NCBI GenBank assembly: GCA_001564065.1
Contig: LKNA01000024.1
Coordinates: 1 to 40,479 of the forward strand
Origin: Chitinophagaceae bacterium T5-Br10_B2g13
GTDB lineage: Bacteria; Bacteroidota; Rhodothermia; Balneolales; Balneolaceae
Length of the DNA: 40,479 nucleotides
Direction: 5' to 3'
Below are positions 457 through 32,500 of this stretch, in pieces (the first letter of the stretch is position 1; each line of letters begins with the position of its first letter). The notes under the pieces were generated by a model. That model searched no databases. It was not told where the DNA came from and worked only from the letters and a program-made list of their open reading frames with translations. The translations under genes were made by a program, and so were the position numbers.

Positions 457-712
457 TTTCGAATATGAGAATTTAAAATTGAAGATCCGACGTTGACCGG
501 TTATGGTAGCTAAGATAATCAGTTCACAAAAATACAAAAGGCTGAAAGCCTGCGAAAGGCGGTATTCGGATTTGCCTATTCTATCCAAAAAATTGAACAG
601 GGCTAGGCGATCAGACAGAATAGCAGTCACTCAAAGACACTCTGTCTTTCTGCAAATGACAGCCGGTCACACGAAGTGAATACCACTGAAACTACTTCAT
701 ATAAATTCTGCC
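457..712. other. Intergenic stretch between GH31 remnant and hsp20 regulatory region
   Basis: This lies between the divergent GH31 remnant and hsp20, and no gene is supported in it. The leftward frame stays open here but has no family-like sequence and sits upstream of a good signal peptide. It probably holds the old GH31 promoter; I could not pick out its boxes with confidence. Confidence 0.4.
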
Positions 713-736
713 TTCCCTGTCAAACGTGACAGGAAA
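713..736. promoter_or_regulatory. Palindrome upstream of hsp20 promoter
   Basis: CCTGTCA-AACG-TGACAGG at 716-733 is a perfect 7-bp inverted repeat around a 4-nt centre. With one mismatch it extends to TT/AA outside. It ends 11 bp before the -24 element of the putative sigma-54 promoter at 745-760. It could be a DNA-binding site for a dimeric activator or repressor, or simply a hairpin. Its left arm contains the CTGTCAA found at the same distance from the cbpA-like promoter. It does not match CIRCE. Confidence 0.5.
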
Positions 737-744
737 ACGACCGT

Positions 745-760
745 TGGCATCTCTATTGCA
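745..760 (+). promoter_or_regulatory. Putative sigma-54 (RpoN) promoter of hsp20
   Basis: TGGCAT-CTCTA-TTGCA matches the sigma-54 consensus TGGCAC-N5-TTGCW at all but one defined position. The GG and GC dinucleotides have the required 12-bp offset. Transcription would begin near 771 and give a leader of about 54 nt. A sequence with the same fixed bases and spacing lies before the cbpA-like gene at 3293. E. coli ibpB, also an hsp20, is known to have a sigma-54-dependent promoter. Confidence 0.6.
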
Positions 761-773
761 ACAATTACTAGTG

Positions 774-824
774 AACGATTGAACAAAAAGTTTTAAACAA
801 CAACTTAAAAAAACGGAGGTCGTT
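774..824 (+). promoter_or_regulatory. hsp20 leader with SD-containing hairpin (candidate RNA thermometer)
   Basis: The Shine-Dalgarno GGAGGT (815-820) is strong. It is bracketed by AACG (812-815) and CGTT (821-824), which can pair and put GAGGT in a 5-nt loop directly before the ATG. An alternative pairing joins AACGA (774-778) with TCGTT (820-824). Such weak SD-masking structures are how small heat-shock genes are often thermoregulated (ROSE, fourU types). The stems here are only 4-5 bp and may be chance. Confidence 0.3.
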
Positions 825-1253
825 ATGACACTCATGAGATATTCTCAACCTGGTACAGATGTAATTGGTAAGCGATTTTCAGACATCATGGATGAATTTT
901 TCAATGATGCGGTTACAAACCGACAAAATACATTCGCTCCAAAAATTGATATATCAGAAACCGAGAATCAATACGTTATAGATGTAACTCTTCCTGGTAT
1001 GAAGAAAGATGACATTCAGCTTGACCTTGAAAAAGGCCGGTTGACCATCAGCGGAGAGCGACAATTTGAAAAAGAGAAAGATGGTAAAACATACCACAGA
1101 GTGGAAAGTCACTATGGTTCTTTTACCCGCTCTTTCCAGCTTCCTGATGATGTGAAGGACGATAGCATTAACGCAACTTATCAGGATGGAATCTTAAACA
1201 TCACCATCGATAAGAGCGAAGAGAAGATGAAAAGACAGATTAAAATCAAATAA
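825..1253 (+). CDS. Small heat shock protein, Hsp20/alpha-crystallin family
   Basis: This is an ATP-independent holdase that binds unfolding proteins in the cytoplasm and keeps them competent for refolding by DnaK and ClpB. At 142 residues it has the normal size. A short N-terminal arm is followed by the alpha-crystallin domain from about residue 37 (P-K-I-D-I-S-E). The domain includes V-x-L-P-G-M-K-K-D-D-I-Q-L and the family signature A-x-x-x-D-G-I-L-N-I-T near residues 121-131. The C-terminal tail is rich in lysine and ends R-Q-I-K-I-K, giving the I-x-I/V anchor used in oligomerisation. The start is fixed by a strong GGAGGT 4 bp before the ATG, unusual in this window. It is monocistronic: a sigma-54-like promoter lies upstream and a terminator downstream. 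The exact orthologue name (ibpA, hspA) cannot be decided by eye. Confidence 0.95.
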   Translation: MTLMRYSQPGTDVIGKRFSDIMDEFFNDAVTNRQNTFAPKIDISETENQYVIDVTLPGMKKDDIQLDLEKGRLTISGERQFEKEKDGKTYHRVESHYGSFTRSFQLPDDVKDDSINATYQDGILNITIDKSEEKMKRQIKIK

Positions 1254-1309
1254 GTAGTTTGTAGTAAGAGCTGTTCTCATATGTCCCCTAAGAGAGCAGG
1301 TTAGTTAGC

Positions 1310-1347
1310 GCCGGAGATCCCTTGACAAGTGTCTCCGGCATTTTTTT
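1310..1347 (+). terminator. Rho-independent terminator of hsp20
   Basis: GCCGGAGA (1310-1317) pairs perfectly with TCTCCGGC (1332-1339) across a 14-nt loop. A run of seven T follows at 1341-1347. Confidence 0.85.
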
Positions 1348-1533
1348 GTGCAATAAATCGGGATAGTTAGAAGTTTAAATCCCTAATGTCCGATTGATTT
1401 CTTATGCGATATAAGGAACGTCCGGTCAGTACGTTAGTAGAAAACTAAAAAATGCTTTTAAACATCGCCTGGAACAGGGTGTGGCAGAAAAAATCATCTG
1501 CTGATAGAATTCAAATAAAATGAGTCGACATTT

Positions 1534-3015
1534 ATGGACAGAATAACAAAAAGTGTAATTGCTGCAGTAGCTGTGGCGTTTTTCTTTATCGGGCTGAATT
1601 TTGGAAATGAAACCGATTCAGATTCTACATCATCGGATTTACCAACATTTAATGAATCCGTGCAGACTGCAGATAATCAGCGAGTAGGGTCTTTAAGAGA
1701 TTTTAACAACGCTATTGTAGATATAGCTGAGCGGGCAAATCCCACGGTAGTAACGATAAATACCACACAGACAGTTCGCCAAAGGCAGCAATCCCCCTTT
1801 TCATTCTTTTTTGATGATCCCCGGTTCGATCGAGAGAGAGAGTTTCAGCGTCAGGGACTGGGTTCGGGTGTAATTGTATCTGAAGATGGATTTATCATCA
1901 CAAATAATCACGTGATTGATAATGCAGATGAGATCAAAATTACACTTTATGACGGTGTTGAACTGGATGCAGAGATAGTTGGGACTGATCCTGCGAGCGA
2001 CATAGCTGTACTGAAAGTTGATCACGAGGATTTAAAAGCAATTCCGCTAGGTAATAGTGATGATCTACGCGTGGGTGAGATGGTGTTAGCTATCGGAAGC
2101 CCGTTAGGCAATCAGTTCGCACACTCTGTTTCGATGGGTATTGTAAGCGCAAGCGGGCGATCGATGCTTGGTTTGAGTCAGTTTGAAAACTACATTCAGA
2201 CCGACGCAGCGATTAATCCCGGAAATTCCGGCGGCCCGTTAATCAACGTAGATGGAGAGTTGATTGGAATTAACACCGCAATTGCAAGCCGCAGCGGTGG
2301 CAACCAGGGTCTCGGCTTTGCCATTCCGGTTAACATGGCCCGAAGCGTAATGGAGTCGTTGATTACAGACGGACGGGTTGCCCGAGGCTATCTTGGAATT
2401 TCTATGGGCGGTGAAGTAGACAGGACCATGGCTCGTGCTTTAGGAATGAATAATCCACGTGGATTTGTGGTTGGAGACGTAGTTGAAGACGGCCCGGCAG
2501 CAAAAGCTGGATTGCAGGAGGGTGATGTTGTTGTACGATTAAATGGTAACGTTGTACGGGATTTTTATGATTTCCGGGTTGCTATTGCAAGTACAGCACC
2601 GGGCTCAGAAGTGGATATAGAAGTATTCCGAGACGGTGAAATAAAAGAATTTACGGTTGTGCTCGGTGAGTTAGACACTGAAGAAGTTGCCGCCGATATG
2701 AGTACATCTGAACGTGAAGAGCTTCGTGAACGGCTTGGTTTTGCAGTAGATGAGCTGACAGATTCCATTCGCCGGCAACTAAACCTCCAGCCTCAGGCGT
2801 TTGGAGTAGTTGTGAATGAGATAAGTGAAACTAGCCGTGCATATTCACAAGGTCTCCGAAGAGGTGACGTGATTTCACAGGTAGCCGGTACATCGGTTAC
2901 TCAACCGGAGGAGTTTTACGGTGCCGTTCAAACCCTAATTGATGAAGGTACTGATGTAGCTCTACTTCGGGTAAATCGGCAGGGAAGAAATATGTTTGTG
3001 GCCTTTGAGTTGTAA
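1534..3015 (+). CDS. Periplasmic serine protease, DegP/HtrA (Do) family
   Basis: This is an envelope protease/chaperone that degrades misfolded exported proteins. The 493-residue length is normal for the DegP/DegQ class. An N-terminal hydrophobic segment (about residues 7-21) acts as signal or anchor and is followed by an S/T-rich linker. The trypsin-like domain holds His126 (T-N-N-H-V-I), Asp156 (S-D-I-A-V-L) and Ser232 (G-N-S-G-G-P). A Q/R/F-rich loop before His126 (about 82-108) corresponds to the regulatory LA loop. Two PDZ domains follow, about residues 275-375 (R-G-Y-L-G-I) and 395-490 (L-G-F-A-V). All catalytic residues are present. A terminator on each side suggests independent transcription. 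There is no clear Shine-Dalgarno; ATG at 1534 is chosen because it directly precedes the membrane segment. Confidence 0.95.
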   Translation: MDRITKSVIAAVAVAFFFIGLNFGNETDSDSTSSDLPTFNESVQTADNQRVGSLRDFNNAIVDIAERANPTVVTINTTQTVRQRQQSPFSFFFDDPRFDREREFQRQGLGSGVIVSEDGFIITNNHVIDNADEIKITLYDGVELDAEIVGTDPASDIAVLKVDHEDLKAIPLGNSDDLRVGEMVLAIGSPLGNQFAHSVSMGIVSASGRSMLGLSQFENYIQTDAAINPGNSGGPLINVDGELIGINTAIASRSGGNQGLGFAIPVNMARSVMESLITDGRVARGYLGISMGGEVDRTMARALGMNNPRGFVVGDVVEDGPAAKAGLQEGDVVVRLNGNVVRDFYDFRVAIASTAPGSEVDIEVFRDGEIKEFTVVLGELDTEEVAADMSTSEREELRERLGFAVDELTDSIRRQLNLQPQAFGVVVNEISETSRAYSQGLRRGDVISQVAGTSVTQPEEFYGAVQTLIDEGTDVALLRVNRQGRNMFVAFEL

Positions 3016-3042
3016 AACAACGTTAGTTAATGGTTAAGGTGG

Positions 3043-3075
3043 AGCCTCTGTCCGGTTTTGGGCAGGGGCTTTTTT
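3043..3075 (+). terminator. Rho-independent terminator of degP/htrA
   Basis: AGCCTCTGTCC (3043-3053) pairs with GGGCAGGGGCT (3060-3070), an 11-bp stem with two G-T pairs, followed by a T-rich run. Confidence 0.75.
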
Positions 3076-3110
3076 ATTGGGGGTAGCTTTTGTTTAGAAG
3101 ATAATTAAGG

Positions 3111-3160
3111 GCAAGTCTCCCCTTGAAGGGGGTGCGGCGTAAGCCGTGTGGGGTGTACGT
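3111..3160. repeat. Candidate dispersed intergenic repeat with small hairpins
   Basis: CCCCTT-G-AAGGGG (3119-3131) is followed at once by CGGC-gtaa-GCCG (3135-3146) and a GTGTGGGGTGT tail. The style is that of short G/C-rich intergenic repeats scattered in Bacteroidota-type genomes. No second copy is in this window, so the repeat nature is a guess. The surrounding 3076-3292 gap has no gene. Confidence 0.3.
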
Positions 3161-3171
3161 CTCCGTAGTGT

Positions 3172-3213
3172 TGTTGAGCTCAACATTCCCTCAACGGGTC
3201 AACGACCCGTTGA
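3172..3213. promoter_or_regulatory. Two perfect palindromes upstream of the cbpA-like gene
   Basis: TGTTGAG-CTCAACA (3172-3185) is a perfect 14-bp palindrome. Six bases on, TCAACGGGTC-AAC-GACCCGTTGA (3191-3213) is a perfect 10-bp inverted repeat. They lie 80-120 bp upstream of the putative sigma-54 promoter, the usual place for an enhancer-binding activator. Neither is followed by a T run, so terminators are unlikely. CCTGTGA is repeated in tandem just downstream (3229-3242). Confidence 0.45.
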
Positions 3214-3292
3214 AAATATCTCATTGGACCTGTGACCTGTGAATCATCCAATCCGTCAGGTATACTGTCAATACAACAATTTGAGAGTGGCG

Positions 3293-3308
3293 TGGCATTA
3301 CTTTTGCA
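3293..3308 (+). promoter_or_regulatory. Putative sigma-54 (RpoN) promoter of the cbpA-like gene
   Basis: TGGCAT-TACTT-TTGCA has the same core and spacing as the hsp20 site at 745. CTGTCAA (3265-3271) precedes it by exactly 28 bp, as at hsp20. The predicted start is near 3319, 23 bp before the ATG. The overlapping TACTTTTG (3299-3306) also fits the Bacteroidota sigma-A box TAnnTTTG, so a housekeeping reading is the main alternative. Confidence 0.55.
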
Positions 3309-3341
3309 ATTATTAAAAGCGAAATAAAGATTGCTAGAGTT

Positions 3342-4346
3342 ATGGAATACAAAGACTACTATAAAATTTTGGATGTGCCCCGGGATGCAACCCAGGATGA
3401 GATTAAGAAGAAATACCGCAAAATGGCGGCAAAATTTCATCCCGATAAAAATCCGGGGAATAAAAAAGCTGAGAACAAATTCAAAGAGATTGGTGAAGCG
3501 TATGAGGTTCTGAAGGATCCTGAAAAAAGAAAGCTGTATGATCAGGTCGGATCTGACTGGAAAAAGTACCAGCAAGCCGGTGCCAGTGCGGATGATTTTA
3601 ACTGGCAGCAGTATGCCGGTGGTAGAGGCGGTGCCGGTGGGCGTCAGCGTGTAAATATCAACATGGACGATATTTTTGGTCAGGGCCAGCACTCTGCCGG
3701 TGGCGGAAGTCCTTTCTCAAGTTTTTTTGAGACACTTTTTGGCGGTGGCCAGTTTGGCGGGAATGGTGGCGATCCGTTTGGAGGTGCTCAGAGCCGGCAA
3801 GGTTATTCAACCGGTGGGCGAAGACGCGCTGCTCCTTCAGTAGCAGATTCAGAAGCTGTAGTTCAGGTTGGGTTGAAAGATATTCTTACCGGTGCTGAGA
3901 AACATCTACGGGTTGGAAATGAAAAGATGAAAGTTAAAATACCTGCCGGTATCGATGACGGTAAACGATTAAAGCTTACAGGAAAAGGGCAGCCGGATTC
4001 AAGAGGTCGAAAAGGTAACCTTTATCTGAAAATAAAGGTAAATGAACCTGAGGGATTTGAAAGGAAAGGGAAAGATATTATTCAATCTGTAGATCTGCCG
4101 GTTTATAAAGCCGCATTGGGCGGTTCCTTAACAGTTGAAACCCTGGAAGGAAAAGTGAAACTGAACATTCCGGAAGGGACACAAAACGGTAAGATGTTCA
4201 GGCTGACCGGACGTGGGGTACCGGACTTCAACAATCCGGGAAAACGCGGGAATTACTATGTAAAAGTACTTCTTCAAATACCCGAAAGGCTCTCTGATGA
4301 AGAAAAAAAACTGTACAAAAAACTTGCTGATCTACAGAATACCTGA
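3342..4346 (+). CDS. cbpA: DnaJ-class co-chaperone, CbpA type (no zinc finger)
   Basis: This is a J-protein that stimulates the ATPase of DnaK and hands over substrates. The J domain (residues 1-70) has the H-P-D motif at 33-35 and the usual K-K-K-Y-R-K helix II. A long Gly/Phe-rich stretch (about 85-160, with repeated G-G-G and F-F) follows, then two C-terminal beta-sandwich substrate-binding domains (about 165-325, with K-V-K-I-P-A-G and L-N-I-P-E-G-T). The four CxxCxGxG repeats of true DnaJ are absent, so it is class II (CbpA/DnaJB). The length of 334 is slightly above E. coli CbpA because of the G/F region. It has no dnaK or grpE neighbour, so it is not the main dnaJ. No Shine-Dalgarno is seen. 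The symbol is by class, not proven orthology. Confidence 0.9.
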
Positions 4347-4416: not shown

Positions 4417-5205
4417 ATGAAATTTCTGTTTCTGATCACTTCAATTTTAGTATTTAACACTGCATCAGTTGACCATCTGGAACACCAAAAGTGGGGCCAG
4501 GTGGGCCACTATGTTACCGGAGAGATCGCTGATTTATATCTTGCCGAAGATGTACGTGAAAAAGTTTATGATATATTAGGTGATCGCTCCATGGCACTCG
4601 CATCTGTTTGGATGGATGATATCCGCTCAGATAGTAATTATGACTACACCAGAACCTGGCATTGGGCCACAATTCCGGATGGAATGACGTATGAAGAGGC
4701 TGAACAGGATGAAGGCGGTGATATTATCTGGGCTCTGGAAACCTTAATCGAAGAGCTAAAACAGGGCGGGCTTACCGAGAAAGAAGAAAAAGATAAACTC
4801 AGAATGGTTATGCACATGATTGGCGATATCCATCAGCCACTTCATGTTGGAAATGGTGAGGATTTAGGCGGAAATCAGGTGCGCCTGCAGTGGATGGGTG
4901 ATAACTCGAATCTGCACAGAGTCTGGGACAGTGACATTATTAACTCAATTCAGATGAGTTATACAGAGCTTGCATGGGAAATAGATACAGCTACCGATGA
5001 GCAGGTACAGGAGTGGCAGAGTGCGACCGTTCGGGACTGGGCGTATGAATCCGTAAGCTATAGAGATAGAGTATACGATCTGCCAGATGATATGAGAATC
5101 GGTTATGAGTATCGATTTCATAACCGGGATCTGGTATTTAAGCGACTGTTACAAGCCGGTATTCGCATGGCCGGAGTCCTGAACGAAATCTACGGGACTG
5201 AGTAA
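4417..5205 (+). CDS. Secreted S1/P1-type zinc nuclease
   Basis: This family comprises exported trinuclear-zinc endonucleases and 3'-nucleotidases that cut single-stranded DNA and RNA. The chosen start (ATG 4417) opens a signal peptide, MKFLFLITSILVFNTAS; a start at 4387 would add a non-signal-like extension. Zinc ligands follow P1 nuclease spacing: W26 and H31, D67 or D68, H82, H133 and D137 (M-H-M-I-G-D), H143 (H-Q-P-L-H), then H167 and D171 (L-H-R-V-W-D). In P1 the Trp is the mature N-terminus and its amine binds zinc; here it follows H-L-E-H-Q-K, so signal cleavage alone may not expose it. The gene lies 70 bp after the cbpA-like gene on the same strand and could be its second cistron. It ends 3 bp from the convergent macrodomain gene. 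Confidence 0.9.
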   Translation: MKFLFLITSILVFNTASVDHLEHQKWGQVGHYVTGEIADLYLAEDVREKVYDILGDRSMALASVWMDDIRSDSNYDYTRTWHWATIPDGMTYEEAEQDEGGDIIWALETLIEELKQGGLTEKEEKDKLRMVMHMIGDIHQPLHVGNGEDLGGNQVRLQWMGDNSNLHRVWDSDIINSIQMSYTELAWEIDTATDEQVQEWQSATVRDWAYESVSYRDRVYDLPDDMRIGYEYRFHNRDLVFKRLLQAGIRMAGVLNEIYGTE

Positions 5206-5208
5206 AGA

Positions 5209-5736
5209 TTAATACTCTTTTAATACACTCAGGTGCAGATTGTAATCTGCCGCGCTAAATAGTACAAATCGAATGTATTTGACATTATTTAACTCAGCTG
5301 ATGTTTTTTTTATGGTGTTAAAAGCGATTTGAGCCGCTTCTTTCATCGGATATCCAAATGCTCCAGTGGATATTGCAGGAAATACAATTGATTCAATTCC
5401 ATTCTCTTCTGCGAGAATAAGTGCATTTCTATAGCAGTTTGCAAGTAACTTATCTTCAGGTTTGTCTTTTCCATAAACCGGCCCTAGACAGTGAATCACG
5501 TATTTGTTTGGAAGATTTGGGGCCTCCGTAATAACAGCCTCTCCGGGATTGATGGGAGCAAGAGGTCGCGTTAACTGTTCCAATTCGGGGTCTCCCTTGC
5601 CGTGGATGGCACCGGCTACTCCCCCTCCAATTTTTAGCTGAGCATTTGCTGCATTTACAATTGCGTCACAATCAGGCTGATCCGCAATATTGCCATTAGA
5701 GAGTTCGACCATTACTTCGTTGAATTCAACGTGCAT
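5209..5736 (-). CDS. Macrodomain protein, probable O-acetyl-ADP-ribose deacetylase / ADP-ribosyl hydrolase (MacroD/YmdB type)
   Basis: It hydrolyses O-acetyl-ADP-ribose or removes ADP-ribose from proteins and nucleic acids. The whole 175-residue protein is a single macrodomain. It has the ADP-ribose pocket motifs V-N-A-A-N (residues 27-31), G-G-G-V-A-G-A-I-H (37-45), H-C-L-G-P-V-Y-G, and the phosphate loop P-A-I-S-T-G-A-F-G-Y-P. The N-A-A-N plus G-G-G-V-A pattern with a following Asp/Glu is that of the MacroD class rather than the histone macroH2A class. It is monocistronic and leftward, converging on the nuclease gene with only 3 bp between stops. No Shine-Dalgarno is evident. No ADP-ribosyltransferase partner is in the window. 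Confidence 0.92.
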   Translation of the reverse strand: MHVEFNEVMVELSNGNIADQPDCDAIVNAANAQLKIGGGVAGAIHGKGDPELEQLTRPLAPINPGEAVITEAPNLPNKYVIHCLGPVYGKDKPEDKLLANCYRNALILAEENGIESIVFPAISTGAFGYPMKEAAQIAFNTIKKTSAELNNVKYIRFVLFSAADYNLHLSVLKEY

Positions 5737-5878
5737 TCTTTTAAAATTAAATTCTAATTAGAAGACTTTTTGTTACAAGCTACAGGTTATGTCATAGATC
5801 ACAAAATGGTGATTTGCTCTCAAAAAGGTGAAAAATTCAATATTTAAAGCTTGTCAAAACGACAATTCCCCAATTTTA

Positions 5879-5888
5879 GAAGCGCTTC
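5879..5888. promoter_or_regulatory. LacI-family-like operator 1
   Basis: GAAGCGCTTC is a perfect palindrome with the central CG typical of LacI/GalR/CcpA-class operators (ideal GAAAGCGCTTTC). Confidence 0.4.
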
Positions 5889-5948
5889 ACATAAGCTTAT
5901 AACACTCTTTAGGCATGTTTAATTGTCATATTTGTAAATTAATTAATA

Positions 5949-5958
5949 AAAGCGCTTT
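5949..5958. promoter_or_regulatory. LacI-family-like operator 2
   Basis: AAAGCGCTTT is a perfect palindrome followed by CC, 70 bp after operator 1 (about seven helical turns). Confidence 0.45.
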
Positions 5959-6051
5959 CCAAAAAAATAGAAAATGTAAGGGCTTTTTCGATGAAAAATT
6001 GTAGGCAGAAATTTTACTCTGATTATTAAAATGTTAAGGCATTTAAAAATA

Positions 6052-6062
6052 GAAACGCTTTC
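6052..6062. promoter_or_regulatory. LacI-family-like operator 3 (imperfect)
   Basis: GAAA-CGC-TTTC keeps both arms but has a 3-bp centre, one base short of the ideal site. It lies about 103 bp after operator 2. Confidence 0.3.
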
Positions 6063-6095
6063 ATGTTAAAGTGTCAGAGTTATCGAGATTCACGT

Positions 6096-6186
6096 GGATT
6101 GATTCATGGTTGGGAAAATTGATTGGAAGCGACCCCAGGCTCTATATTAGGGCAAATCAATCAATAAGCATAGAATCAATCAATCC
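6096..6186. repeat. AATCAAT repeats flanking the start region of the secreted protein
   Basis: GGATTGATTC (6096-6105) is the inverse of GAATCAATCAATCC (6173-6186). AAATCAATCAAT lies between them at 6154-6165, and TTGATTGG at 6119-6126 is a further related copy. Pairing of the arms would form a long hairpin ending 8 bp before the ATG at 6195, or the copies could be protein sites. Confidence 0.4.
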
Positions 6187-6194
6187 TAAAAATC

Positions 6195-6644
6195 ATGTTA
6201 AAGATTAAAAAACTACTGTATATCGTGTTGACCGTTTTATTCTCATTAACGGCAACATCAGAACTCTTAGCTCAACAGTCCGATAAAACTGAGTGGAGCC
6301 AGGCACTTTACGAAAAACTGGAGCAGAGCCTCTATTTTGGTCTGTCATCTGATGTGGACGGAGTTGTGGAATCGGCACTGTTCAATATGCTCAACTATAA
6401 AGTGGTCTATCCGCAGTTCAATTCAGACAATGTGTTGAACAAGGCAAAAGAGATCGCAAACCGAAGTGAATCAAACCGTATATCTGAAAGAGCTGAACTG
6501 GTAATTCGTTTCTACGAAAATCAAGAGGACTTTCCGGAGGCCGAACAGCTCTTGGCAGTAATCGATCATACCAACCAGGACAGGATTTTTGAATTCCTGA
6601 AAAATGGTGATTATGCCAATCGTTATACTTCTACACAGAAGTAA
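6195..6644 (+). CDS. Small exported protein of unknown function
   Basis: This 149-residue protein has a clear Sec signal peptide: K-I-K-K, a hydrophobic core from residue 7 to 22, then S-E-L-L-A-Q-Q with a cut probably after L-L-A. The mature part of about 120 residues is predicted helical. It has short helix pairs (E-K-L-E-Q-S-L-Y-F-G-L, then V-V-E-S-A-L-F-N-M-L-N-Y-K, then I-S-E-R-A-E-L-V-I-R-F-Y) like a degenerate HEAT-type solenoid. I recognise no named family. No cysteine follows the signal, so it is probably periplasmic rather than a lipoprotein. It stands alone with its own terminator and an unusually elaborate upstream region of LacI-type palindromes, which suggests tight regulation, possibly nutritional. 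Confidence 0.75.
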   Translation: MLKIKKLLYIVLTVLFSLTATSELLAQQSDKTEWSQALYEKLEQSLYFGLSSDVDGVVESALFNMLNYKVVYPQFNSDNVLNKAKEIANRSESNRISERAELVIRFYENQEDFPEAEQLLAVIDHTNQDRIFEFLKNGDYANRYTSTQK

Positions 6645-6681
6645 GAAAAGTCGTAAATAATCCATTTTGGGGTTAAAGTGG

Positions 6682-6722
6682 CCGCCTGTAGTTATCTATA
6701 CGATAATGGCAGGCGGTTTTTT
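6682..6722 (+). terminator. Rho-independent terminator after the exported protein
   Basis: CCGCCTG (6682-6688) pairs with CAGGCGG (6710-6716). TTATC and GATAA form an inner stem, and a T run follows. Confidence 0.85.
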
Positions 6723-6892
6723 ATTGCAGTGCTATTGAGACAGTGGTCAGGAGGGAAATACTGCCAATAATATTAAGGTCAGTCATTTTTAACTGTAGAT
6801 TCGGCCTGTTCTGCAATTCCGACAGTATACGCCGCGAAGGTATGGTTTTAGCTTCTGTAAGAGTAAAAGGAGATTTTTAAACAGGAGCTAAA

Positions 6893-9529
6893 ATGAATTT
6901 CAACAAATTTACGATTAAGGCACAGGAGGCTGTACAGGCGGCACTTGAGCTGGCTCAGAATGTGAATAATCAGGCTGTTGAGCCGGCGCATATTTTAAAA
7001 GCGCTGTTGAGTGACTCAGAAAACGTGACAATCCAGATTTTAAAAAAAATAGGGGTCAATGTTTCGTCACTTATAGAACAGCTGGATAAAAAAATTAAGT
7101 CGTTCCCTGTAGTGAAGGGCGCGTCTGTTTCGGGACAATATTTATCAAACAACACCAAAGCTCTTTTTGATAAGGCGCAATCTGAAGCGACCGACCTGGG
7201 AGATGAGTACATCAGCTCCGAACATATTCTGTTGGCGCTGGTGGGAACTACATCCGAAAGCAGTGATCTGCTGAAAAATCAGGGCGTGAAGAAGAGTCAA
7301 ATTCTTCAAATTTTGAAGGATGTCCGGGGCAGCCAAACCGTGGATGATCCCAATGCGGAGAGCCGTTACCAGGCACTGAAAAAATATGCCCGAAACCTGA
7401 ATGAGCTGGCAGAGAAGAATAAGCTGGACCCCGTCATCGGCCGCGATCAGGAGATTCGTCGTGTGATGCAAATCTTGTCGCGACGAACCAAAAACAATCC
7501 GGTATTGATTGGTGAGCCCGGCGTGGGTAAAACGGCTATTGCGGAAGGACTCGCCCTGCGAATAGTTCGCGGTGATGTTCCCGAGGGCTTGAAAACGAAA
7601 CAGATTGTAGCTCTGGATATGGGAGCTTTGGTAGCAGGTACCAAGTTTCGCGGTGAATTTGAGGAGCGCCTCAAGGCCGTGGTGAAAGAGGTGATGGAAT
7701 CGGATGGAGAGCTGATACTCTTTATTGATGAGATCCATACACTCGTCGGTGCCGGCGCCACGGAAGGTTCGATGGATGCTGCAAACATTCTAAAACCGTC
7801 GCTGGCACGTGGCGAGCTGCATGCAATTGGTGCCACTACGCTGACCGAGTACAGAAAATATATCGAGAAAGACAAGGCACTGGAGCGTCGTCTGCAAACC
7901 GTATTTGTCGGGGAGCCATCGATTGAAGATACGGTGTCGATTTTACGCGGACTTCAGGAGCGATATGAAGTTCACCATGGTGTGCGGATTACAGACTCCG
8001 CAATTGTAGCTGCAGCAGAACTTTCTCACAGATATATTGCAGACCGATTCTTGCCGGACAAGGCGATTGATTTAATTGATGAAGCTGCATCACGACTCAG
8101 GCTGCAAATTGATTCCATGCCTGAAGAGCTCGACAGCATTGAGCGCCAGATTCGTCAGCTCGAAATTGAGCGGGAAGCCCTCAAAAGGGAAAATGACGAG
8201 GCGAAGCTGAAAGCGAATGAGAAAGATTTGGCCGACCTGGAAGAGAAACGAAAATCGATGCGTGCGCAGTGGGATCATGAGAAAGGGTTGATCCAGAAAA
8301 CCCGGGAGCTGAAACAGGCGATTGAGACTGCGCGTAATCAGGCCGATAAAGCAGAACGCGAAGGTCAGTACGAAAAAGTTGCCGAACTTCGCTACGGAAC
8401 CATCACACAGCTTGAGAAGGATCTGGAAGAGACGAAGGCTAAACTGGATGATGTTCAGGAGGGAAGGTCGCTGCTTAAAGAGCAGGTGGAAGCAGAAGAG
8501 ATTGCCGATATTGTGAGCCGCTGGACCGGAATTCCGGTTACCAAGATGCTATCCAGTGAGCGTCAGAAATTGCTCAAACTGGAAGAGGAGCTCCACAAAC
8601 GGGTGATTGGACAGGATCAGGCGATTGAGGCTGTTTCAGACGCTGTACGCCGCGCAAGAGCCGGACTGCAGGACGAGAACCGCCCGATCGGCTCATTTAT
8701 GTTCCTCGGTTCAACCGGTGTAGGTAAAACTGAGCTTGCGCGTTCTTTGGCTGATTTCCTATTCAATGACGAGGACGCGATGATACGGATCGATATGAGT
8801 GAATATATGGAGAAGCACAGTGTGAGCCGCCTGATAGGTGCACCTCCCGGATATGTTGGATATGATGAGGGTGGTCAGTTAACTGAAGCTGTCCGTCGGA
8901 AACCATACTCCGTTATACTGCTTGATGAGATTGAGAAAGCTCATCCGGATGCGTTCAATATTTTGCTGCAGGTACTGGATGATGGACGTTTGACTGACAA
9001 CAAAGGTGTAACGGTTGACTTTACGAATACCATTGTCATCATGACCAGCAACATCGGGTCACATTTGATTTCCGATCGTATTGAAAAGAGCGGTGGTGAA
9101 ATGGATGATGCTACCTACAGTGAACTACAGGACAAACTCTTTGAACAGCTGAAGAAAACCATACGGCCGGAGTTTCTGAACCGTATTGATGATGTGGTGG
9201 TATTCCATCCGCTCGATCAGCGACATATCCGGCAGATTGTGGATATTCAACTCAAACGGGTTGATGGTATGCTGGCTAAGAACAAGGTATCACTATCCGT
9301 ATCGGACAATGTAAAAGACTGGCTGGCTGCACGTGGCTATGATCCTGTTTACGGTGCTCGACCGCTGAAGCGGGTAATTCAAACTCAGATCGTGAACCAG
9401 CTGGCAAAACAGTTGATTCAGCGAGAGGACGATAGCGAAAGCATTGAGTTTGAGACCACAGTCAGCAAAGATGGAAGCAAACTCGAATTTGCCGAAGTAT
9501 ACAACGACGCCGAAGCGTGGGCGGATTAA
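6893..9529 (+). CDS. clpB: ATP-dependent disaggregase ClpB (Hsp100)
   Basis: It threads aggregated proteins through a hexameric ring and works with DnaK/DnaJ and small Hsps to refold them. The 878 residues match the full-length form. The Clp N domain spans about 1-145 (F-T-x-K-A-Q-E-A-V). The first AAA+ domain has Walker A G-E-P-G-V-G-K-T at 207-214 and Walker [10 protein letters not shown] charged coiled-coil middle domain follows (about 400-530, present in ClpB and absent in ClpA/ClpX). The second AAA+ domain has Walker A G-S-T-G-V-G-K-T at 606-613, Walker [12 protein letters not shown], and pore motif P-P-G-Y-V-G-Y. No ClpP-binding I-G-F loop is evident. AGGAG at a good distance precedes the ATG, better than most genes here. 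No sigma-54-like site with the right spacing is upstream. Confidence 0.98.
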
Positions 9530-31024: not shown

Positions 31025-32500
31025 ATGAAAACACTCGGCGAGTTAAGAAAGAGCGGATATCAACCGGAATCAGTAAAGGATGAACTGCGGAGAAATATGA
31101 TCCGCAAAATGAAGAGTGGAGAGGAGCTTTTCCCGGGAATTCTGGGTTATGAAAAAACCGTTTTACCCCAGCTCCAAAATGCAATTTTAGCACGCCACGA
31201 TATCATTCTGCTTGGTTTGAGAGGTCAGGCAAAAACCAGGATTTTACGCCTTTTAGTTAACTTTTTAGATGATGTAATACCTGTTATAGAAGGCTCGGAA
31301 GTGAATGATGATCCCCTCAATCCGATTTCGAAATACGGAAAGGAAATGGTGGCAAAACATGGCGATGAAACACCGGTCGTGTGGTTGAAACGTGAACAGC
31401 GCTACGGCGAAAAGCTGGCCACTCCGGATACGACTGTAGCTGATTTGATCGGTGATCTGGATCCGATCAAAGCTGCATCCAAAAAGTTGACGCTTGCCGA
31501 TGAAGAGGTGATTAACTTTGGATTAATCCCAAGAACGAACCGCGGAATTTTTGTGATTAATGAGCTGCCTGACCTTCAGCCCAGAATACAGGTGGCACTG
31601 CTGAATATTATGCAGGAGAGAGATATTCAGATTCGGGGATTTAATGTACGCATTCCAATGGATGTATCACTGGCTTTTTCAGCTAATCCCGAAGATTATA
31701 CCAATCGCGGGAATATTATCACTCCGTTAAAAGACCGCATCGATTCTCAAATAATCACTCACTACCCTAAAGAGTTGAAAGTTGCGACCGAAATAACCAA
31801 ACAGGAAGCCTGGAGCGGACGAAATGGCGATGTGGATGTGGAGATTCCTGATCTGTATAGAAGCGTGCTTGAGTATGTTGCATTCGAAGCCCGAAATAGC
31901 GAGTACATCGATCAGAAGAGCGGAGTGTCGACACGAATGACGATTACAGCCATGGAGCAGGTGATTTCTGCAGCTGAACGAAGGGCCATAATGAATGAGG
32001 AAAAGAAGGCAAAATTGCGGGTAGCAGATCTTTTTTACATGATACCCGCACTTACCGGGAAGCTTGAGCTTGTTTATGAAGGCGAACAAGAGGGGGCTGT
32101 AAATGTAGCGAAACACCTTCTTGGAAAAGCAATTAGAAAAGCGTTTCTGGACCATTTTGATGATCCGTCGGCAAAGAGGGCTGAAGGAAATGAAGGGCCC
32201 TATAAGAAAGTTTTAGACTGGTTTGCTACAGGAAACATTCTCGAGATACCGGATTTGATGCCTGAGGGTGCTTACAAGACATCTCTGGAAAAGGTAGCCG
32301 GATTGAGAGAACTTGTTGAGAATAATTCAGAAATAGAGAAAGAGGAATTGCTGCCTGCTATGGATCTGGTTATTGAAGCGCTTCATCAATATTCAAAACT
32401 TGGTAAAGAGGATGTAGATGATACCCGGAGCTATTCCGATATGCTTGGAAGCATGTTGGGCGGAATGGGCGATTTCGAAGAGGATGACTTTGATCTGTAG
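31025..32500 (+). CDS. AAA+ ATPase of the magnesium-chelatase ChlI / MoxR class
   Basis: This 491-residue cytosolic ATPase starts at ATG 31025; the TTG at 30992 would add 11 residues and is less likely. It has Walker A G-L-R-G-Q-A-K-T (64-71). The Walker B region reads I-F-V-I-N-E-L-P-D-L, with Asn-Glu in place of Asp-Glu. The following A-N-P-E-D-Y-T-N-R-G-x-I-I-T-P-L-K-D-R-I-D matches the ChlI insert. Such ATPases usually work with a VWA-domain partner encoded next door; none is here, as downstream lies an Lrp gene. It is not the chlorophyll enzyme, since no BchD/BchH is present. C-terminal residues end in a Met/Gly and acidic tail. The substrate is unknown. Confidence 0.85.
   Translation: MKTLGELRKSGYQPESVKDELRRNMIRKMKSGEELFPGILGYEKTVLPQLQNAILARHDIILLGLRGQAKTRILRLLVNFLDDVIPVIEGSEVNDDPLNPISKYGKEMVAKHGDETPVVWLKREQRYGEKLATPDTTVADLIGDLDPIKAASKKLTLADEEVINFGLIPRTNRGIFVINELPDLQPRIQVALLNIMQERDIQIRGFNVRIPMDVSLAFSANPEDYTNRGNIITPLKDRIDSQIITHYPKELKVATEITKQEAWSGRNGDVDVEIPDLYRSVLEYVAFEARNSEYIDQKSGVSTRMTITAMEQVISAAERRAIMNEEKKAKLRVADLFYMIPALTGKLELVYEGEQEGAVNVAKHLLGKAIRKAFLDHFDDPSAKRAEGNEGPYKKVLDWFATGNILEIPDLMPEGAYKTSLEKVAGLRELVENNSEIEKEELLPAMDLVIEALHQYSKLGKEDVDDTRSYSDMLGSMLGGMGDFEEDDFDL

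Follow-up and report, generated by a model that had tools for sequence, protein, structure and literature searches.

Two matching elements ahead of chaperone genes in a bacterium of the Balneolaceae are probably sigma-54 promoters of a chaperone regulon opened by an NtrX-like activator, a reading to which we give a probability of roughly 0.78. The elements precede hsp20A, a small heat-shock gene, and dnaJ2, a gene for a DnaJ/CbpA-like co-chaperone. Both genes lie on contig LKNA01000024.1 of Chitinophagaceae bacterium T5-Br10_B2g13, a stretch of 40,479 nucleotides (hereafter the window; contig C126 of our set). The source draft genome has 4.30 Mb in 258 contigs and is 97.57% complete. The promoter type and the list of targets that we propose are supported by comparison among related genomes.

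Two sigma-54-type cores ahead of chaperone genes

Both cores have the form GG-N10-GC with flanks like TGGCAC-N5-TTGCW, as sigma-54-dependent promoters require. The cores and the genes behind them are as follows.

745..760, forward strand: sigma-54-type -24/-12 core of hsp20A, TGGCATCTCTATTGCA, with GG at 746-747 and GC at 758-759
825..1253, forward strand: hsp20A, small heat-shock protein of 142 amino acids (PF00011, 93.8 bits)
3293..3308, forward strand: sigma-54-type -24/-12 core of dnaJ2, TGGCATTACTTTTGCA, with GG at 3294-3295 and GC at 3306-3307
3342..4346, forward strand: dnaJ2, DnaJ/CbpA-like co-chaperone of 334 amino acids (PF00226, PF01556)

Transcription from sigma-54 promoters usually starts about 12 base pairs (bp) past the GC, and from this distance the starts would be predicted at 771 (the G of GTGAA) for hsp20A and at 3319 for dnaJ2.

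A preliminary description of this DNA had proposed the two cores, each ahead of a chaperone gene, and an exact-match search confirmed them. TGGCAT-N5-TTGCA occurs with 0 mismatches exactly twice in the window, and the same two occurrences are the only ones in the whole 4.3 Mb assembly, where the reversed pattern occurs once. The heptamer CTGTCAA does begin 28 bp before each core (at 717 and 3265), as had been described. When the whole genome was scanned for the joint motif CTGNCAA-N21-TGGCAY-N5-TTGCW, the two copies of the window were the only exact matches and none was found with 1 mismatch; at 3 mismatches there were 46 matches versus 30 for the reversed control. In a scan of relatives with a longer motif whose spacing was fixed, 26 of 58 genomes gave a match; the source genome, in which the second half-element is different, gave none.

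Conservation of the cores

The cores are kept upstream of the orthologous genes in the family and mostly in the order. Among 26 dnaJ2 upstream regions of the family, 25 match at least 10 of the 11 consensus positions inside a span of 150 bp; in the 26th (genome G020) a perfect site lies farther out, 199 bp upstream of the called start. For hsp20A, 29 of 30 regions reach at least 10 of 11 and the remaining one scores 9. Dinucleotide shuffles reached 10 in 32 of 2600 cases for the dnaJ2 regions and in 27 of 3000 for the hsp20A regions, while coding-segment controls never did (0/52 and 0/60, hence 0/112). With the cores conserved at the same genes and absent from the coding controls, the earlier claim that the two copies are unlikely to be accidental is upheld. 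A further 20 hsp20A promoters of the family were fetched after the motif had been fixed and were scanned over 220 bp, with Y accepted as the fourth base; all 20 score at least 9 of 11, and 19 of them at least 10.

We also scanned for the dnaJ2 site in 41 of 80 named loci (9 Balneolaceae and 32 others). All nine Balneolaceae loci carry it at 10 or 11 of 11, a count that is not independent since several of them are sequence-identical to genomes already examined. The cultured relative Rhodohalobacter halophilus also has this dnaJ2 site. Among the 32 others, a match of 10 of 11 at -183 in Anaerolineae and one of 9 at -252 in Anaerolinea, 2 of 32 loci, were taken as chance.

Elsewhere in the order, in its other families, the dnaJ2 site takes the form TGGCA(A/G)G-N4-TTGC, with 14 of 16 regions at 9 or more of 10 positions; the exceptions are a near match in G039 and the absence of a site in G035 (family f2). 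In families f3 to f5, 19 of 20 fetched hsp20A regions score 9 to 11 of 11 (Y at the fourth base); the G045 region, which has no site, was dropped from this set. For the other orders of the class, 20 of 21 listed hsp20 matches were fetched, from 18 genomes. TGGYAC-N5-TTG is complete at all nine positions within 220 bp in 14 of these 20 regions, compared with 1 of 4000 Markov-simulated regions. The likeness of the hsp20 site beyond the order is suggestive, with the -12 GC mostly absent: all but two of these 20 sites (loci L369-L388) read TTGA, TTGT or worse in place of TTGC, and may represent either a variant of the -12 element or a different element.

TGNCA boxes upstream of the cores

The heptamer CTGTCAA had been put forward as an activator site. 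Its fixed place stands, and the conserved part is TGNCA rather than the heptamer. In the window, the proposed activator sites are the following.

717..732, forward strand: inverted repeat CTGTCAAACGTGACAG, with TGNCA at 718-722 and 727-731 (-27 and -18 from the hsp20A core)
657..661, forward strand: TGACA, a TGNCA box at -88 from the hsp20A core
3265..3279, forward strand: element CTGTCAATACAACAA, with TGNCA at 3266-3270 (-27 from the dnaJ2 core); its family consensus is about CTGNCAAAATCGCAA

A TGNCA box, selected after the alignments had been inspected, is found between -25 and -29 relative to the core in all 26 dnaJ2 and all 30 hsp20A promoters (56/56), compared with a mean of 0.48 (dnaJ2) and 0.61 (hsp20A) promoters in shuffles; for dnaJ2 the range is -25 to -27. 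The family's 30 hsp20A promoters have a second box, between -87 and -89. In families f3 to f5 the hsp20A boxes are found near -17, -27, -36, -47, -57, -68, -79, -89 and -100, with a few in between.

The hsp20A boxes recur about every 10.4 bp. The 67 genus-collapsed positions, drawn from 53 promoters, fit a period of 10.3 bp best (power 29.6), and none of 5000 random sets attains this power. Among 15 other palindromic 5-mers the highest power is 8.97, for AANTT at period 10.6. For families f3 to f5 alone, the periodicity was matched by 0 of 3000 random sets by genus and by 3 of 3000 by family. In genera new to the analysis, 20 of 25 boxes are in the predicted phase (40% expected) and none of 20000 random sets attains the power, although these boxes are not independent since most are again found at positions -27 and -88. 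The new boxes at about -40, -60 and -76 do not fit the phase.

Two other features of the hsp20A upstream regions were observed. AANTT is spaced near 10.6 bp across 18 genera and could reflect phased A-tracts and curved DNA. In many members of the genus (L047-L076) a stretch resembling GTGAAA-N3-5-CTGCAG lies about 44-60 bp before the core, between the two TGNCA boxes, and is a possible bend or putative factor site.

RpoN and a candidate activator

As the preliminary description had expected, the genome contains both rpoN and a sigma-54 activator. The RpoN protein, encoded on contig C140, contains its three domains as well as the RpoN box, and scores 425.7 bits against TIGR02395 (cut-off 277.35). 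A search with PF00158 yielded a single full candidate activator at an E-value of at most 1e-30, a response regulator of 456 amino acids with a receiver, a sigma-54 interaction domain, a Fis-type helix-turn-helix and a GSFTGA loop. Receiver, interaction domain and helix-turn-helix are shared with the NtrX response regulators, and NtrX (NF051870) is its best NCBIfam model; we name it NtrX-like only, since its score of 482.7 bits is below the cut-off of 600. It further differs from NtrX systems in that no kinase gene was seen in the 3.5 kb around its gene, which sits between folD and an open reading frame resembling a D-Ala-D-Ala carboxypeptidase gene (both identified by eye).

All 58 genomes searched carry at least one activator. 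A folD-like open reading frame, recognised by motif, adjoins the activator in 25 of 30 loci, and these 25 are spread over families f1 to f5. The parsed activator sequences, 27 in number, have a recognition segment RSH(I/L/M)Y in common in 25 cases and the G(A/S)FTGA loop in 26. Weak PF00158 matches in the window, at 8690-8998 and 31517-31696, are accounted for by AAA domains in ClpB and in an AAA_5 protein, and were rejected as sigma-54 activators; further weak matches lie on contig C11.

Proposed further members of the regulon

TGGCAYN5TTGCW has six sites in the source genome, two inside genes (contigs C7 and C181) and four intergenic. All four intergenic sites precede chaperone units, namely hsp20A, dnaJ2, hsp20B-dnaK and grpE-dnaJ. 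The second hsp20 gene, hsp20B, has dnaK 51 bp downstream, and the sites before hsp20B and grpE were found again in relatives. A site of the TGGTAC form, TGGTACGGATGTTGCA, stands at -111 before groES of groESL. Its counterpart scores 10 of 10 in five of seven other genomes, is weaker and without the GC in G043, and is missing in G036. On sequence grounds we propose hsp20A, dnaJ2, hsp20B-dnaK and grpE-dnaJ as targets, with groESL as a probable and clpB as a possible addition. Such a regulon would govern the DnaK, GroE and small heat-shock machinery, on which protein folding in the cell mainly depends. The RpoN chaperone regulon that had been suggested is supported, and appears wider than was claimed. 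A genome lacking rpoN, or a core not kept before orthologues, would have counted against it, and neither was the case.

The G036 region, the sole one of eight groES regions without a sigma-54-like site, carries an inverted repeat GGCACTC-N9-GAGTGCC about 34-60 bp before the groES start (locus L331, read by eye), which we take to be close to the CIRCE element.

The genes clpB and degP had been described as lacking the site. This holds for degP, whose 200-bp upstream region has no GG-N10-GC site, as is the case in 6 of 6 examined; for clpB it is less clear, as a weak site lies before it, with weak counterparts in 4 of 4 relatives.

1534..3015, forward strand: degP/htrA-type protease, between both promoters (TIGR02037 above cut-off)
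6838..6853, forward strand: possible weak sigma-54-type site AGGTATGGTTTTAGCT before clpB, with the -26 T and one -12 T missing
6893..9529, forward strand: clpB disaggregase, possible further regulon member (TIGR03346 above cut-off)

The weak GG-N10-GC site is thus present before clpB in 5 of 5 species and has the first T in none of them. In a Balneolaceae metagenome-assembled genome from another family group (locus L193), dnaJ2 (4501-5454) is followed after a 15-bp gap by clpB (5469-8096), and the pair stands behind a single sigma-54-like site, TGGCAAGGTATTTGCA. The third hsp20 copy of the source genome (contig C98) has no site upstream. Separately, we observed CTGCAATTCCGACAG at 6811-6825 before clpB, and 4 of 5 species share CTG(C/T)AATTCCGACAG; this element is possibly an activator site.

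The gene order at the left end of the window is hsp20A, degP, dnaJ2, an S1/P1 nuclease gene, an open reading frame without Pfam match, and clpB. Within the stretch examined, five of nine named Balneolaceae loci keep the order hsp20A-degP-dnaJ2; the nuclease gene and the open reading frame follow dnaJ2 in seven of the nine, and clpB comes next in four. The nearest named relatives, judged by the dnaJ2 protein, are Rhodohalobacter, placed in Balneolota, Balneolales, and other Balneolaceae. None of NCBIfam's DnaJ or CbpA models scores above cut-off for this protein.

Points against the regulon and alternative explanations

Several observations weigh against sigma-54 promoters under the NtrX-like activator. 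Strict GG-N10-GC is absent from 3 of 30 hsp20A cores and from 1 of 26 dnaJ2 cores. The C of TTGC is missing from 18 of 20 hsp20 sites outside the order (2 of 20 show TTGC). When each distinct position is counted once, the helical spacing of the boxes is weakly supported: 243 of 5000 random sets match it, a number that falls to 98 of 5000 once the new genomes are included, and within 102 bp these numbers become 547 and 253 of 5000. TGGCAYN5TTGCW occurs 6 times in the source genome versus 9 times for the reversed pattern, and the number of sites in this genome therefore proves nothing; summed over the ten genomes searched, the counts are 86 versus 47. The signal is in the placement and conservation of the sites and not in their number. 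The assembly also has a contamination of 8.87%. Finally, a second activator of about 429-438 amino acids is present in many members of the genus among the matches listed, and was not found in the source draft genome at an E-value of at most 1e-30.

This second activator would fit a different arrangement, in which the promoters are of the sigma-54 type and TGNCA is read by another protein (the second activator, a co-regulator or a repressor), with the folD-linked activator acting elsewhere. A box fixed so close to the core is also unusual for a looping enhancer. Yet the source genome, for which the search returned one activator, keeps the TGNCA boxes, with the reservation that a draft may miss a second one, and the conserved folD linkage and recognition segment argue for the folD-linked protein. 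We consider the arrangement unlikely, while giving it some weight.

That these are ordinary sigma-A promoters (TAnnTTTG with TTTG at -33) in which the sigma-54 match is incidental seems to us highly improbable. The dnaJ2 core does contain TACTTTTG, and the partial fit to TAnnTTTG pointed out in the preliminary description is correct for this one core. The box is nevertheless poorly kept, in 9 of 26 dnaJ2 and 1 of 30 hsp20A cores versus 25 of 26 and 27 of 30 for GG-N10-GC, and the sigma-A reading was set aside for this reason. Chance matches, for which the excess of the reversed pattern in the source genome might speak, were dismissed as next to impossible given the conservation at orthologues relative to shuffles and coding controls and its confirmation in newly fetched genomes.

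A possible mechanism

Under the sigma-54 reading that we favour, RNA polymerase carrying RpoN would bind TGGCAY-N5-TTGC and wait as a closed complex. The folD-linked NtrX-like AAA+ response regulator would bind the upstream TGNCA boxes, which would lie mostly on one face of the DNA; relative to the start, each promoter has one box around -50, and hsp20A has another around -110. Under folding stress the regulator would then open the complex at the expense of ATP. We infer the use of the sites by sigma-54, the binding of TGNCA by the activator and the signal, with heat as the trigger. The proposal amounts to a short, testable chaperone regulon for which exact starts are predicted and both an activator and a DNA box are named as candidates, and if it is true, the switching on of chaperones in these bacteria becomes directly testable.

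Heat-shock control of the sigma-32 type is known in Proteobacteria. We hypothesize, tentatively and with more doubt than belief, that the main heat-shock circuit of Balneolota might instead run through RpoN and the folD-linked NtrX-like activator, reading a helically phased TGNCA array, sensing folding stress and replacing sigma-32-type control. With one box fixed some 25 bp ahead of the -24 element, no long DNA loop would be required for activation. This wider idea is weakened by the class-level sites, mostly without the -12 GC, and by the CIRCE-like repeat before one groES.

Comparison with known systems

Like hsp20A as read here, the ibpB gene of E. coli encodes a small heat-shock protein and has a sigma-54 promoter. 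It differs in being a single gene in a host whose main heat-shock factor is sigma-32.

In the open-access literature, no paper turned up that links Balneol- to sigma54, or rpoN to both Rhodotherm- and heat shock, and the terms searched for in PMC12596196 gave no RpoN content. In Flavobacterium psychrophilum, a sigma-54 motif (SM4) with mapped starts has been reported before groESL, lon, dnaK, grpE-dnaJ, htpG and clpB (PMC9723704). The likeness lies in the -24/-12 elements before dnaK, grpE-dnaJ and groESL, and perhaps clpB: by sequence, elements of this type are present here, with exact sites before hsp20B-dnaK and grpE-dnaJ and the TGGTAC form before groESL. The Flavobacterium list additionally has lon, htpG, gliding and other genes, while the regulon proposed here would target two hsp20 genes and dnaJ2; hsp20 was not noticed in the portion of PMC9723704 available to us. 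Nor was an activator box noticed in that portion, whereas conserved TGNCA boxes, proposed activator sites, are present here.

A 2025 survey predicts a sigma-54-enriched chaperone cluster in Bacteroidota classes and Planctomycetota (PMC12316311). That cluster resembles ours in GroEL, GroES, IbpA (COG0071), GrpE, DnaJ and DnaK. The survey names Flavobacteriia, Bacteroidia and Cytophagia, and the terms Balneol- and Rhodotherm- are absent from its main text as accessed. Its reference 80, cited for sigma-54 dependence, is a Blattabacterium paper, and the citation may be an error. Given the Flavobacterium mapping and the Bacteroidota prediction, we count the regulon as a further case of a known type: a sigma-54 chaperone regulon has already been mapped or predicted in relatives (PMC9723704, PMC12316311), and what is added here are the TGNCA boxes and a candidate activator.

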